Assembly: GCA_016873335.1 (NCBI GenBank)
Contig: VGXN01000004.1
Location: 1-64,000 of the forward strand
DNA: 64,000 nucleotides
Origin: Phycisphaerae bacterium
Lineage (GTDB): Bacteria > Planctomycetota > Phycisphaerae > Phycisphaerales > SM1A02
Direction of reading: 5' to 3'
Shown here in pieces: positions 41,420 to 48,602 of this stretch (the stretch's first letter is position 1; the number at the start of each line of letters is the position of its first letter). The translations under genes and the position numbers were made by a program. The notes beneath the pieces are model-generated. The model did not search any database. It saw only the letters and a list, made by a program, of their open reading frames with translations, and was not told the DNA's origin.

Positions 41420-41880
41420 GGTTCTGGTTCCCCCTCGGTGTGGTGGTCTGTCGTGTCCCCGCTGCCAGCGACTGCACCCGCGTCGTATCCCATGTTTGGC
41501 AGCGACGAACGCAGTTCGAAGGCAAGTTCAGGCACGCGCCGCAGCGTCGTGGAGTCGCGAAGCGAAGAGCGCAGGAAGCCCGCCGCGCTGCGCAGCGCAG
41601 CGATCGAGAGCGGACCACGGTCCGACGGCAGCACCGACACGGAGACGCGCGCATGCAGCAGATCGGGGCTCACGGAAACATCCTGGACGGACACCATTCC
41701 CTGCAGCCGCGGGTCCGCAAGTCCACGCGTGATGCGCTCCTGCAGCGCACGCTGCAGGACGCTCGCCACCTGCGCGGGGCGTGAACTCGGCACCGCCTCA
41801 CGCAGGCTGCCATCCGGCGCGAACGAGAGGCCCGGCGGCAGCTTTGGTCCCTTGCCGCGGCGCTCACGCATTGCCGCCAC
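41416..41880 (-). CDS. rbfA: ribosome-binding factor A
   Basis: SSRPAQVASVLQRALQERITRGLADPRLQGMVSVQDVSVSPDLLHARVSVSVL; position after infB. Confidence 0.88.
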   Translation of the reverse strand: MAAMRERRGKGPKLPPGLSFAPDGSLREAVPSSRPAQVASVLQRALQERITRGLADPRLQGMVSVQDVSVSPDLLHARVSVSVLPSDRGPLSIAALRSAAGFLRSSLRDSTTLRRVPELAFELRSSLPNMGYDAGAVAGSGDTTDHHTEGEPEP

Positions 41881-44737
41881 CCAGCGGACGCACCATCGTC
41901 GTGCGGTAGCACTCGAGGATGTCGCCCTCGCGAATGTCGTCGTACCCGTTGATCTTCATGCCGCACTCGTTCCCCGAGCGGACTTCCTTCGCATCGTCCT
42001 TGAACCGCTTGAGCTGTTCGAGGCGGCGATCCTTCTCGATCACGATGCCATCGCGTGTGACACGAATCTGCGCGTTGCGTTCGATCGTGCCATCCGTGAC
42101 GTAGCAGCCCGCAACCGCACCAACCTTCGAGATCTTGAACACCGCACGGACCTCCGCATGGCCGAGCACCTGCAGGCGAACCTCAGGCTCGAGCAATCCG
42201 CGTACCGCCTTGTCCATGTCCTCCGTCAGCTGGTAGATGATGTCGTAGAGGCGCAGATCGACCTTGCGGACTTCCGCAAGCTGCCGCGCCTTTCCGGTGC
42301 TGGTCACATTGAATCCGACCACCACGGCGCCGGTGGTCGACGCGAGTTCCACATCGCTCTCGTTGATGCCGCCCACCGCAGCGTGCTTGATCGATATCGT
42401 CACATCATCCGCCTTGATCTTGCCAAGCACAGCCTTCAGCGTCTCGACCGAGCCCTGCACATCCGCCTTGACCACGAGCGGCAGCTCCTTTCGCTTCGAC
42501 TTCGCCATCGTCTCGAAGATGTTGTCGAGCGTGACCTTCGGCGCGGAGAGTTCGCGCTCACGTTCAAGGGCGCGGCGCTCAAGCGCTGCCTGCTCCGCGG
42601 CAGCGAGCGAATCCACCACATAGAACTTGTCCCCCGCATCCGGCAGAGTGTCGATGCCCGAGATCGCCACGGGGGTGGTGGGATGCGCCGACTGCGTCCG
42701 CTTGCCGTGGTCATCCACGATGTCGCGCACCCGACCGAACGCGCGCCCAACGACCACGAAATCACCGCGCTTCAGCGTCCCTTCCTGAACGAGCAGTTGC
42801 GCGACCGCGCCGCGCCCCTCCTCCATTCGCGCCTCAAGCACCGTGCCCTGCGCGTGCCCGCCCCAATCGGCCTTCAGCTCCAGCACATCCGCCTGCAGCG
42901 CAATGAGCGCGAGCAGATCGTCGACGCCAGTGCCCTTCAGACCGCTCACTTGTGCGACTTCGACGGAACCGCCCCACGGCACAGGGTTCAGTTCGTTTGC
43001 CGTCATCTGGCCATAGACCTTCTGAAGTCCTTGCTCGCTGAACTCGGGACGGTCAATCTTGTTGAGCGCCACGATCATCGCGACCTTCGCCGCACGCGCA
43101 TGGTTGATGCTCTCGACCGTCTGCGGCATGATGCCATCGACCGCATCGACCACGAGCACCACGATGTCCGTCACCCGTGCACCACGCGCACGCATGGCGG
43201 TGAATGCCTCGTGACCTGGCGTGTCAATGAAGGTGATCGGTCGCTTCTGTCCGCCCGCGTTCACATGGACCTGGAACGCGCGCGTCGACTGGGTGATCCC
43301 GCCCGCCTCGCCAGCGGCGACATTGGTCGATCGAATGCGATCGAGCAGCGTCGTCTTGCCGTGGTCGACATGACCGAGGATCGTCACGACTGGAGGACGC
43401 ACGCGTTCATCCGTGCGCTGACGGTCCGCAAATCGCTCGACGATCTCTTCGGACGCGGTCTTCATGCGGTCGATCTCCACCTCCACGCCAAAGTCCATCA
43501 TCACTTCCATCGCCTGCTCGCCATCGAGTGCAGCGTTGATGGTGATGGGATTCCCTGCCAGCAGGAAGTGCTTCATGATCTCCGCCACCTTCACGCCGCT
43601 GATCTCCGACAGTTCCTTCACGGACACAGGATCAGGAACGCGGATCGGTCCCTGCGGCTTGGCGACAGTGCGGGTCGGCGCGGGACCTGTTGGGCGTCGC
43701 GGGGCACTGTGCCGCTTGAAGTACCCATCCGCGCCTTCCATCTGGCGCTTCTTCTCTTTGAGATCAAGATCGCGGAACTTGTCGCGCTGCCCCGAACCAG
43801 CGCGGCCCGATCGCCCGCTGTCCGCTGGTCGTCGCGTTCCGGCACCGCCTGCACCTGCGCCGCCAGGGCCCGGCGGTCCCCCCGGACGCACAATTCCCGC
43901 CCCGCCGCCGCCCATCGGGCTTCGACCAAAGGGCGGCCGTGATGGACCGAACGGACTCCGTGGGCGAGGCGTGGAAACCTGATCGGCTTGTTCCACGCGG
44001 ATCACCTTGGGACCCGAGAGCGCGGTCTTCGCTGGCTGCTGCAACTGCTCTCCAAGATTGCGGGGGCGCACGGGTCTCGTGGGAACGTTCATGGGCGCCG
44101 GAACAATCGGCTTCGGCGGCGCCGGCGGTCGTGGCGGCGGAGCCGTCACGCGCGGCAGTGTTGGCGCGGCAGATCCCCCGCCGCCGCCTGCAGGAGGCGG
44201 ACTTGGGCGTGCACCCAGAGGTGTACCTAGCTGACCGACGTTTGGACCCGTGGGCGGCACCTTCGCAGACACGGTCTTCGGCGCGGCTTGCGCCGGCGCT
44301 CCCGCAACGGGCGCTCGAGTCGTCGCAGCAGAGGCAGCAGGACCGACGGCGGGTGCCGCTGCAACGGATGTCCGCTTGCTCGGCGACGCGGGTGCGGTTG
44401 GCGCGGAAGCCGCAGTTGGCTCAACCCCACCGCCCGCCGCCGCGGCGGTCGAATCCGGATCCTCAACCTTCTTGCGCTTCTTCGGCGCAGCCCTCTTTGC
44501 CTTTTCGCGCAGCGCACTGACATCGACATGCTCGCTGGTCTCTGTCGCACTGGAAGTCGCCCCGCCACCGAACCATTCCTTGATCGTCTCCGCAAGACCG
44601 AGCGTCACGGTGGCTTGCGCCGTGGTCACTCCCTCGACACCCTCGCGCGCGCACTTCTCGATGATGTCCTTTGCGGAGATCCCGATGTCCTTTGCGATCT
44701 GGGTGATTCGAACTTTCTTGAGGGTCTTGGTTGCCAC
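41864..44737 (-). CDS. infB: translation initiation factor IF-2
   Basis: [59 protein letters not shown]-rich N-terminal linker. GTG start. Confidence 0.96.
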
Positions 44738-44831: not shown

Positions 44832-46166
44832 TCAACTCTGGCTCGTTCCACCGCCACCGAGGATGCTGTCAGCCGCCGCTTCGCTCTGTGCGTCCGTCTC
44901 AACAACAGGCTCGTCCGCAGCGCCACCGCCGAGGACCGCATCAACGACGGCGCCTTCCTCTGCCTGCCGCGCTTCAGCCTCCGCACGCTCACGCTGCATT
45001 TCCTCGGCGACCACCTTCGCGCGCACCGTGCACGCATCGACCACCCGCAGTGCAAGTTCTTCGCTCATGCCGCACTCGTTGATGAGGCTCTGTTCGCCGA
45101 TCTCTTCGACGTCAAACACACTGATCATGCCGAGCGCGCCCATGCGGTCGAGCATCTCATCGGTGACACCCTCCACTGCCTTGACCGCGCCCTGCAGCGT
45201 CTGCAACCCCTTCTCGAACTCGGGCGGTGTGAGGATGTCCACATCCCATCCCGTCAGCCGCGCCGCGAGGCGAACATTCTGCCCCCGGCGACCAATCGCC
45301 AGTGACAGTTGATCATCGCGCACGATGATCGTGGCACGACCGAGTTCGAAGCAGAGGCTCACTTCCTCGACCTCCGCTGGCTTCAGCGCGTTGGAGATGA
45401 GCACTTGGCTCGACTCGTTCCACCGCACGATGTCGATCTTCTCTCCACCAAGTTCATCCACGATGTTGCGGATCCGAGAACCGCGCACGCCCACGCATGC
45501 ACCAACTGCGTCCACCTTCGAATCGACCGAGGACACGGCGATCTTGGTGCGGAAGCCAGGCTCGCGCGCCATTGCCTTGATCTCGATGGTGCGTTCAGCC
45601 ACCTCGGGCACCTCCGACTCGAAGAGGCGGCGGATGAAGTCGGGATGCGCGCGGCTCATGACGATCTTCACCTGGCTGCCCGCGTCGCGGACATCGAGCA
45701 GGATGCATCGAACGCGGTCGCCCGGCTGAAACTGCTCGCCTGGGATCTGCTCGCTCTTGGGCATGAAGCCTTCGGTGCGGTCGACCTGCACGATGAGGGC
45801 GTTCCCCTCGTAGCGCAGCGCACTGCCCGTCACGAGTTCGCCTTGCCGCTTCGAGTACTCATCGAGCAGCGACACGCGCTCGTTCTCGCGGAAGCGCTGG
45901 ATCATCACTTGCTTCGCCGTCTGCGCGGGAATGCGCCCGAGCTTCTCGAGCGGGATCATCTCGTGACCGCCATCCTCGAGATTTCGCCAGAGCGAGATCG
46001 TGCCCGTCTGGCGATCGATCGCGCAGCCGAACTCTTCGAGATTTTCCGAGTTGAAGTGCTTGCGGACGGCACTCACCATGGCTTGCTCAAGGTCTTGCAC
46101 GAGCAACTCGCGGTCGATGTTCTTGTCGCGCGCCAGCGTGTCGAGGTGTCGGATCAGTTCGCTCAT
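44832..46166 (-). CDS. nusA: transcription termination/antitermination protein NusA
   Basis: DLEQAMVSAVRKHF, S1-like region, KH domains (RDDQLSLAIGRRGQNVRLAARLTGWDVDI); SD AAAGGACTGACACC before ATG 46166. Confidence 0.95.
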   Translation of the reverse strand: MSELIRHLDTLARDKNIDRELLVQDLEQAMVSAVRKHFNSENLEEFGCAIDRQTGTISLWRNLEDGGHEMIPLEKLGRIPAQTAKQVMIQRFRENERVSLLDEYSKRQGELVTGSALRYEGNALIVQVDRTEGFMPKSEQIPGEQFQPGDRVRCILLDVRDAGSQVKIVMSRAHPDFIRRLFESEVPEVAERTIEIKAMAREPGFRTKIAVSSVDSKVDAVGACVGVRGSRIRNIVDELGGEKIDIVRWNESSQVLISNALKPAEVEEVSLCFELGRATIIVRDDQLSLAIGRRGQNVRLAARLTGWDVDILTPPEFEKGLQTLQGAVKAVEGVTDEMLDRMGALGMISVFDVEEIGEQSLINECGMSEELALRVVDACTVRAKVVAEEMQRERAEAEARQAEEGAVVDAVLGGGAADEPVVETDAQSEAAADSILGGGGTSQS

Positions 46167-46246
46167 GGTGTCAGTCCTTTCAGGCTTCTGTCGAGATGTT
46201 GGGATGTACCGAGTTGTCGCCGCGAACACGAGACACAATCCTGACC

Positions 46247-46283
46247 AAACAAAAAGACCATGTTCGCCGCGGCGCGAACATGG
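46247..46283 (-). terminator. intrinsic terminator (minus strand) upstream of nusA
   Basis: Perfect 10-bp inverted repeat CCATGTTCGC (46258-46267) / GCGAACATGG (46274-46283), 6-nt loop, followed on the minus strand by TCTTTTTGTTT. Confidence 0.75.
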
Positions 46284-46561
46284 CCCGTCCACAAACGGCG
46301 TTGTGCCACGGGGTCAGACCACGGTGGTCTCCTCACGGCACGACACCCCTGCTCCCGAAAGACGCAGATGGACGCGAAAACGCGTCATATGCGGCTTCCG
46401 ACTGCCGATTCGACTCGATCCGAGAAAGAAAGGATGGAGGGTCGCATAGAGCAGCTGCACCTTGGGAACCTTGGGGGAACCGTGACGACCCAAAGCCGTA
46501 CGGAGCCAAGATCCATTCAGGAAACGGAACGGACGGGCCTCCCAAAGTCGCCCTTGGGAGA
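46247..46561 (-). ncRNA. candidate structured leader or independent ncRNA upstream of nusA
   Basis: Between a sigma70-like promoter (46568-46596) and an intrinsic terminator; possible closing helix GGCCCGTCC (46539-46531) / GGACGGGCC (46290-46282), local hairpin GACGCG-TTTT-CGCGTC, helix GGGTCG/CGACCC; no convincing ORF. Confidence 0.45.
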
Positions 46562-46567
46562 ACGGCA

Positions 46568-46596
46568 AGTATAGCGCAGCGCACCTGATTTCGCAA
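46568..46596 (-). promoter_or_regulatory. sigma70-like promoter for nusA leader/ncRNA
   Basis: Minus strand TTGCGA-N17-TATACT. Confidence 0.6.
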
Positions 46597-46640
46597 GCGA
46601 TTTCGGCGAATGCGGGGCCATCTCCGTACACTCCGTTGAG

Positions 46641-48602
46641 ATGCGCGCTTCACTGTGGATGCTGCCATGCATGGTGATTTTCGGCTGGGGGAACGCCCCC
46701 GCTGCGGCGCAGTCGCCCGACGATCCCGTGCGCGCGAGAGTCGTGCTCGCAGCGACAACGGTGGCCCCCGGAGCGGATCTTCCCGCCGCGATCGAGGTCT
46801 CCATCGCGCCGCGGTGGCACATGTGGACGCAGGCTGGCGCGACCGTGCCAGACGCTGCCATATTCGATGGCGCCGAGTGGACAACCGCCGAAGCGTCCGG
46901 CGTGGGCGGCGCGGTGCGCGCCGCGTCGGCCGCCACCGGCATGTGGATGACCGCACCGACGAATGCGTTCACGCCACTGCTTGCACAGTGGCCGAGGTCC
47001 CACCTTGTCACTGCCGATGTCGGCGATGGGCCGCAGAAGTACGCGGTCTTCGAGGGGACATTCGTCATCGGGGTGCCGCTTGCAATCGCAGCCGATGCCA
47101 GCGAAGGCGAGCACACGTTCACGCTGCGCTTGCGCTATCAAGCGTGCGATGCAACGACTTGCCTCGCGCCGACCGAAATCGACATGCCCGTCACATTGCG
47201 TGTGGCGGCTGGTGCGGCGATGCCTGCGCTCGATGCAGCACTTAAGGACTTTGACGCGAGCATCTTCGCAGCGCTCAACAGTGGCGGGGCCGGTCCGCGT
47301 CCGGTCCTGTTCGACTTCTTCGGTGCGACATTTTCCATTGATCCGACGGGCACCGGCTTCCTGCTCGTGCTTCTGATCGCTGCGCTCGGTGGAGCGCTGC
47401 TGAACTTCACGCCCTGCGTCCTGCCCGTGATTCCACTGAAGATCATGGGGCTCGCGCACAGCGCGGGCAATCGGCGGCGCTGTGTGATGCTTGGCGCGAT
47501 GCTGTCGCTTGGCGTGATCGCATTCTGGGTGGGGCTTGGTGTTGCCGTGTCGCTCATCAGCGGATTCACGACATCGAGCCAACTTTTCCAGTATCCATGG
47601 TTCACCATCGGCGTTGGTGTCATCATCGCCGTGATGGCGATCGGCATGTGCGGGCTCTTTTCCGTGCGTTTGCCGCAGTCGGTCGCGGGCATCGACTTCC
47701 GTCACGACACACTGGCTGGCTCGTTCGGTTTCGGCATCATGACGGCAGTGCTCTCCACGCCGTGCACCGCACCGCTCATGGGAGCCGCCGCGGCATGGGC
47801 CGCCACGCAGCAGCCGTGGGTGGTGCTGCTGGTGTTTGGCGTCATCGGCAGCGGCATGGCGCTGCCGTACATGGTGCTCAGCGCGTTCCCGCAGCTCGTG
47901 CAGCGGGTCCCGCGCAGCGGTCCCGCGAGTGATCTGGTGAAGCAGGTCATGGGTCTGCTGCTGTTGGCTGCCGCCGCATACTTCATTGGCGCGGGTGCCG
48001 CGGGCATGCTCGCGGCGCCACCCGAGCCGCCGACGAAAGACTACTGGTGGTTCGTCGCGGCGCTCGGCATCGCGGCAGGCGGCTGGATGAGTGTGCGCAC
48101 CTGGTGCATCACGCCGCGCATGCAGCCACGCCTCGTGTTCGGATCACTTGGGCTTGGGATCGTGGTCGCGAGCGCTGCAATCGGCATTCAACTGACCGAT
48201 GATGGCAAGATTCCGTGGGTGTACTTCACACCCGAGCGCCTCGCCGATGCGCAGGCACGCGGGGATGCGGTGGTGGTGGACTTCACCGCGGAGTGGTGTC
48301 TCAACTGCAAGACGCTCGAGAAGACGATCCTTGAAAGCGATGCGGTTGCGGCGCGGCTCAGCAGTGCCGGGGTCACGCCGATCAAGGTCGACTTCACAGG
48401 CGACAACCCGCAGGGACGCGCGCTCCTGAAGCGCTTTGATCGACTCACGATTCCGCTGCTTGTTGTCCTCTCGCCCAGCGGCGAAGAAGTATTCAAGAGC
48501 GACACCTACACGCCCGCGCAAGTGCTGCAGGCGATCGATGCCGCGCAGGGACAACCGCCTGCAACCGGCGCGACCGCAGCCGCGACTCAATCGCAGGGCT
48601 GA
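46641..48602 (+). CDS. dsbD: thiol:disulfide interchange protein DsbD
   Basis: FTPCVLPVIPLKIMGL and VLSTPCTAPLMGAA transmembrane Cys motifs; C-terminal thioredoxin FTAEWCLNCKTLE; N-terminal DsbD-N-like region. Confidence 0.92.
   Translation: MRASLWMLPCMVIFGWGNAPAAAQSPDDPVRARVVLAATTVAPGADLPAAIEVSIAPRWHMWTQAGATVPDAAIFDGAEWTTAEASGVGGAVRAASAATGMWMTAPTNAFTPLLAQWPRSHLVTADVGDGPQKYAVFEGTFVIGVPLAIAADASEGEHTFTLRLRYQACDATTCLAPTEIDMPVTLRVAAGAAMPALDAALKDFDASIFAALNSGGAGPRPVLFDFFGATFSIDPTGTGFLLVLLIAALGGALLNFTPCVLPVIPLKIMGLAHSAGNRRRCVMLGAMLSLGVIAFWVGLGVAVSLISGFTTSSQLFQYPWFTIGVGVIIAVMAIGMCGLFSVRLPQSVAGIDFRHDTLAGSFGFGIMTAVLSTPCTAPLMGAAAAWAATQQPWVVLLVFGVIGSGMALPYMVLSAFPQLVQRVPRSGPASDLVKQVMGLLLLAAAAYFIGAGAAGMLAAPPEPPTKDYWWFVAALGIAAGGWMSVRTWCITPRMQPRLVFGSLGLGIVVASAAIGIQLTDDGKIPWVYFTPERLADAQARGDAVVVDFTAEWCLNCKTLEKTILESDAVAARLSSAGVTPIKVDFTGDNPQGRALLKRFDRLTIPLLVVLSPSGEEVFKSDTYTPAQVLQAIDAAQGQPPATGATAAATQSQG

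Follow-up and report, generated by a model that had tools for sequence, protein, structure and literature searches.

The window, i.e., the whole 64,000-nucleotide stretch of DNA analysed here, comes from a draft genome; the named genomes closest to it are for the most part MAGs of Phycisphaerales and of other planctomycetes. Within it, nusA and infB open an operon on the minus strand (Table 1), and the element under study occupies the gap between nusA and dsbD, which starts at position 46641 on the plus strand. An earlier note on this DNA, made from the sequence alone, had described a minus-strand promoter and an intrinsic terminator bracketing about 310 nt. We found both to be the sole sites of their kind in 45800-47200, where 0.2 promoter-like and 0.9 terminator-like sites were expected in shuffled sequences, and the predicted transcript of roughly 315 nt would start near 46561 and end near 46247. 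In an alignment of relatives the corresponding promoter position reads TTGAAAA..TATAAT, and the 5′ arm of the terminator recurs across the order as GGYCACG or GGYCATG. The stretch between terminator and nusA (46246-46167 in the window, and its counterpart in relatives) carries a C/A-rich motif, GACAAC or GACATC, often repeated; a few loci of the order and class have ACAACTGAATAG-like forms there, similar to the RNA to which NusA of M. tuberculosis binds. At seven loci from other orders of the class (L168, L172, L174, L176, L177, L185 and L186) the sequence ahead of nusA resembles, by eye, a protein end (MxLDMxRVHLFEPGETGxNxSL), perhaps that of an ABC-transporter ATPase or a relic of one.

Table 1. 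Features of the nusA upstream region and the genes that follow it (window coordinates)
Feature	Position	Strand	Remarks
Sigma-70 type promoter, TTGCGA-N17-TATACT	46568..46596	-	Transcription start expected near 46561
5′ hairpin CTCCCAAGGGCGACTTTGGGAG (CTCCCAA..TTGGGAG)	46539..46560	-	Helix 1; 5/7 pairs with compensatory change
P1, 5′ strand GGCCCGTCC (proposed antiterminator strand)	46531..46539	-	Pairs with 46290-46282
uORF1, MRPSILSFSDRVESAVGSRI and stop (20 aa)	46385..46447	-	Start and stop in frame in nearly all same-genus leaders; length varies
uORF2, MTRFRVHLRLSGAGVSCREETTVV and stop (24 aa)	46314..46388	-	Start overlaps the uORF1 stop (ATGA)
Hairpin core at uORF2 start, GACGCG-TTTT-CGCGTC	46371..46386	-	Helix 4 of the pair-count set
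Hairpin with minigene and its Shine-Dalgarno	46303..46341	-	Helices 5 and 6; 10/18 pairs with compensatory change
Minigene Shine-Dalgarno, AGGAG	46329..46333	-	
Two-codon minigene, GTG-GTC-TGA	46314..46322	-	Stop shared with uORF2
P1, 3′ strand GGACGGGCC	46282..46290	-	Last five bases also form the base of the terminator stem
Intrinsic terminator	46247..46286	-	Stem 46286-46255 plus T-rich tail; 13 stem pairs; helix 7 of the pair-count set
nusA	44832..46166	-	NusA_N and KH_5 by Pfam; first gene of the operon
infB (initiation factor IF2)	41864..44737	-	IF-2, IF2_N and GTP_EFTU by Pfam; next after nusA

Searches against Rfam returned no match at gathering score in the window's region or in 12 related loci, and matches at E <= 10 were at chance level, in line with the earlier description of the RNA as unassigned. 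Several known RNAs were considered individually and rejected: 6S RNA (no RF00013 profile match anywhere in five genomes of the genus, the window's own among them), tmRNA (ARAGORN found none in the window), tRNA (rejected for the leader on a scan of the window) and RNase P RNA (profile matches elsewhere in the genome). The window's draft genome has two above-cut-off RNase P RNA matches (G000:C8:35918-36294 and G000:C1:32741-33108), scoring 323 and 260 bits, and five relatives have one each; the second match represents either a duplication or a contaminating contig.

The region folds more stably than expected, with a minimum free energy of -146.7 kcal/mol compared with -118.7 ± 5.1 kcal/mol for dinucleotide-shuffled sequence (z = -5.47), and no shuffle out of 100 reached the same stability. 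Among 12 leaders from the same genus, RNAalifold identified 62 pairs, 23 of them with compensatory change, and two-sided changes numbered 63 against 21.2 in shuffles. By pair counting, 92.8% of the pair cells in these leaders were standard, a proportion that fell to 31-40% when the 3′ partners were slid by 1-3 columns. The helices listed in the earlier note are thus present and exceed chance both by shuffled folding and by covariation in relatives, the comparison it had named as a check; its GGGTCG/CGACCC helix was found in the window's closest relatives only. Its long-range 9-bp helix, henceforth P1, does abut the terminator and is retained in every one of the 12 leaders, with its strands GGCCCGTCC and GGACGGGCC paired in 97.6% of cells. 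Changes in P1 are one-sided only within the genus, and related pairs occur at loci L019, L023, L039, L047 and L066.

BLASTN detected the element in 13 genomes of the genus, counting its own; in all of them it adjoins nusA, with dsbD on the opposite side wherever the contig extends far enough. A covariance model built on the 3′ part matched 19 of 151 family genomes, once in each, and did so directly upstream of nusA in all 16 genomes where the position of nusA is known. The model fails to reach more divergent genera; the position upstream of nusA is kept across the order. Furthermore, the terminator ends 35-37 nt before the start of nusA in L019, L021 and L022, which is too short for a separate promoter and leader and makes read-through the simplest route to nusA. 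That the stretch is the 5′ leader (attenuator) of the nusA-infB operon, and not a free-standing RNA gene, is thereby well supported at the level of sequence comparison, and the short terminated RNA would be a by-product of this leader. If the element were instead an RNA in its own right, trans-acting or housekeeping and about 315 nt long, nusA would be expressed via read-through or from another promoter. Such an RNA would share the promoter, terminator and covarying fold, and finds some room in the lack of 6S RNA in the five genomes searched. We nevertheless consider it improbable, given that the element sits at nusA in every genome checked, that the 35-37 nt spacing recurs in several relatives, that upstream reading frames are conserved in frame (see below) and that the primary sequence diverges fast outside the genus, unlike that of a housekeeping RNA. 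What remains of the earlier reading is a structured, bracketed RNA outside Rfam that covaries in relatives; its stand-alone status is not supported, the element lying at nusA wherever this was checked.

The earlier note had also seen no convincing ORF in this stretch, a point which has to be revised, as it contains two overlapping upstream ORFs and a two-codon minigene. The uORF1 stop is the TGA within an ATGA whose ATG starts uORF2 (the Shine-Dalgarno of uORF1 is weak in the window). The 3′ end of uORF2 reads AGGAG-N6-GTG-GTC-TGA, i.e., a properly spaced Shine-Dalgarno, a start, a single sense codon and uORF2's own stop. In other members of the order this plan has diverged: uORF1 often contains the ATG of uORF2, in the form CATGNNNNN-stop, and the end of uORF2 is either the minigene stop or a TGA within the minigene's NTGA start.

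We quantified this arrangement by counting combinations of Shine-Dalgarno, start, k codons and stop in the 420 nt upstream of nusA. At k = 1, they were present in 53 of the 69 loci of the broad and partly redundant family f1 (8.2 expected from dinucleotide shuffles) and in 35 of 41 further loci of the order (5.5 expected). In real control windows from the same loci the k = 1 rate was 7.5%, as opposed to 74% and 83% upstream of nusA. Counts for most other values of k were close to expectation; those for k = 13-14 in the family and k = 8 in the order were also raised, which fits the uORF1 lengths read by eye. Beyond the order, it was start-stop pairs (k = 0) that were in excess among 20 loci from other orders of the class (11 vs 3.9), and in 20 loci from other planctomycete classes the minigene rate was 15%, i.e., no excess in the classes sampled. 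The loci on which the family pattern was scored were those in which it had first been spotted by eye, the loci of the order, too, had been inspected before scoring, and several loci share a genus; the enrichment is far larger than these sampling caveats could produce. Minigenes start with ATG, GTG, TTG or CTG and end in TGA (72), TAG (20) or TAA (11); since all three stops and four starts are in use, what is conserved is the stop and not a string of bases. At L156, the first 200 bases of the nusA upstream region hold the minigene segment CGCGCCATGACCTGAGCGCGCG twice, as near-identical tandem copies.

In 50 of 53 family loci (null mean 6.2, maximum 12) and 19 of 30 order loci (null 2.1, maximum 8), an overlapping ATG opens a frame that extends exactly to the minigene; among class loci this was so in only 2 of 12 (null 0.9). 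As far as sequences can tell, the layout of uORFs, minigene and terminator is conserved throughout one planctomycete order. Within the genus, indels in uORF2 keep the frame (4951 columns in frame, 14 not), and a codon-position test for a conserved peptide was negative, third positions being no faster (0.255) than first and second positions (0.276 and 0.313). Neither uORF peptide matched Pfam, and neither keeps an amino acid from which a particular sensed tRNA could be deduced. It seems, then, that the act of translation is conserved and the peptide is not. An unconserved peptide would also be expected if the uORF chain and minigene served to keep a long leader occupied by ribosomes, shielding it from Rho and nucleases, with the terminator as a volume control only; indeed, minigenes elsewhere in bacteria have been explained as RNA-stabilising (PMC8708949). 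Such a shield, however, has no need for a sense-codon count of exactly one, and translation of the ORFs would end some 20-120 nt short of the terminator without continuing into nusA, so we find this explanation hard to favour and give it little credence.

P1 and the terminator both use positions 46282-46286, an overlap of 5 nt, so the two predicted pairings would exclude each other. We modelled ribosome occupancy in silico by holding the region from uORF1 to the minigene unpaired in 12 leaders. This predicted lower P1 pairing in all 12 (e.g., from 7.5 to 5.2 pairs in the window and from 4.7 to 0.2 in L024) and a higher pairing probability of the terminator base in most leaders, not all: several showed a small predicted change (L017, 0.16 to 0.33), whereas others (L019, L022 and L027) showed none or a slight reversal. 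The calculations thus agree in part with competition between the two helices. The hairpin containing the minigene and its Shine-Dalgarno (helices 5-6) would be opened by a ribosome finishing uORF2. The masking result, together with the covariation of this hairpin, suggests that busy ribosomes favour the terminator and that an idle leader favours P1 and read-through.

P1 is clear only in that section of the family to which the window belongs. The idea of an upstream antiterminator common to all families found partial support: excess complementarity to the terminator arm (p <= 0.05) occurred in 16 of 51 family and 5 of 29 order loci. Terminators and minigenes were called automatically; a few loci were corrected by hand before structures were tested, and at some loci the wrong hairpin had been taken for the terminator. 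Pairing of the minigene with downstream sequence was found at p <= 0.05 in 18 of 57 family loci (2 of 57 in the control); in the order the count was 3 of 32 against 2 of 32 in the control, which does not support it there.

Taken together, all of this evidence being comparative, we favour, with a probability of about 0.6, a 5′ leader that attenuates transcription of nusA-infB by sensing translation, probably as a feedback switch that responds to how well ribosomes work. The promoter, fold, two uORFs, minigene and terminator ahead of nusA are established or strongly supported as predicted features. We infer the switching itself (GGCCCGTCC as antiterminator, with feedback from IF2 or the ribosome), of which the polarity and the sensed factor are the least certain steps. 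Specifically, ribosomes would load at uORF1, move to uORF2 through the overlap, open the minigene hairpin and terminate at the minigene stop, where they could restart on the minigene's own Shine-Dalgarno, start, codon and stop, and thus linger. Strong Shine-Dalgarno sequences have been reported to allow such restarts on minigenes (literature cited by PMC8708949). With the leader well covered by ribosomes, the full terminator would fold and little nusA-infB would be made. If initiation or the supply of ribosomes dropped, the bare leader would fold, GGCCCGTCC would pair with GGACGGGCC and thereby occupy the terminator's stem base, letting RNA polymerase read through. IF2 (and NusA) would in this way come under negative feedback, with IF2 as the product that closes the loop. 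IF2 acts on short peptidyl-tRNAs. A more specific version, in which a re-initiation loop on the minigene, fed via the two overlapping uORFs, reports IF2 or ribosome-recycling capacity and sets nusA-infB transcription accordingly, is a tentative proposal that we regard as possible, with the odds against it.

NusA itself could be the effector. NusA might bind the leader or a terminator arm, promote termination and repress its own operon, the uORFs merely tuning or shielding the leader. E. coli NusA does repress its own operon, and contact between NusA and the terminator has been proposed for the rimP-leader (PMC2965389). At our loci, the GGYCACG arm is conserved beyond what a terminator needs, and GACA[AT]C occurs more often than expected over the final 100 nt ahead of nusA, between terminator and gene (41 of 69 family loci vs 9.2 expected; 27 of 41 order loci vs 5.5). 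However, this explanation leaves unaccounted for the conserved Shine-Dalgarno, start, exactly one codon and stop, as well as the two overlapping uORFs, and we deem it unlikely, if less so than the shield or the independent RNA.

The translation-sensing leader proposed here can be compared with several known systems. The rimP-leader, an attenuator of rimP-nusA-infB operons (Naville and Gautheret 2010, PMC2965389), consists of an intrinsic terminator 4-130 nt before the operon with a G-rich 5′ arm, for which attenuation of nusA-infB has been proposed; termed the most ubiquitous bacterial transcription attenuator, it is in most species a bare terminator, for which that survey found no sensor and reported no larger conserved element. 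The window shares with it an intrinsic terminator in the leader of a nusA and infB operon, and differs in three respects. First, its operon starts with nusA: RimP_N (PF02576) was detected in none of 11 genomes of the phylum (the window's and ten others, complete genomes among them), whereas the same profile search detected it in 10 of 14 control genomes. Second, its terminator stem reads GGGCC..GGTCT and not GGGc..gCCC, the rimP-leader form GTGGG..CCCAC being kept in other orders of the class and in other planctomycete classes. Third, its terminator follows a covarying fold with two uORFs and a minigene. The window's leader thus departs from the rimP-leader in three tested features and is best called a variant of leader-ORF attenuation. 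Like leader-peptide attenuators of the trp, his and ilv type, it has a short ORF, a terminator and a candidate competing helix; unlike them, it has no single-amino-acid codon run in uORF1 or uORF2 across relatives, its peptide is not conserved and its second ORF ends in a minigene.

Literature searches found no publication on a planctomycete nusA leader and no other report of a two-codon minigene conserved order-wide before a terminator. The E. coli nusA-infB leader (metY operon) is similar in being complex, with terminators before the same genes and feedback by NusA (PMC6511841); unlike the window, it contains the initiator tRNA gene metY and rimP, and we found no report of a uORF chain in it. 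Known two-codon minigene regulators (lambda bar, the LEE1 leader and axe-txe mg2; PMC8708949) resemble the one described here in having a Shine-Dalgarno, a start, one sense codon and a stop and in acting in cis within a leader, as we propose from sequence for the window. Those regulators are found shortly before a translation start, where they influence translation or the stability of the RNA, whereas the window's minigene closes a pair of uORFs, precedes a transcription terminator and recurs throughout an order. In one bacterial order, then, the nusA-infB leader appears to include an overt sensor-like element, the conserved minigene into which overlapping uORFs feed, and the question of what the operon senses thereby becomes open to direct testing.
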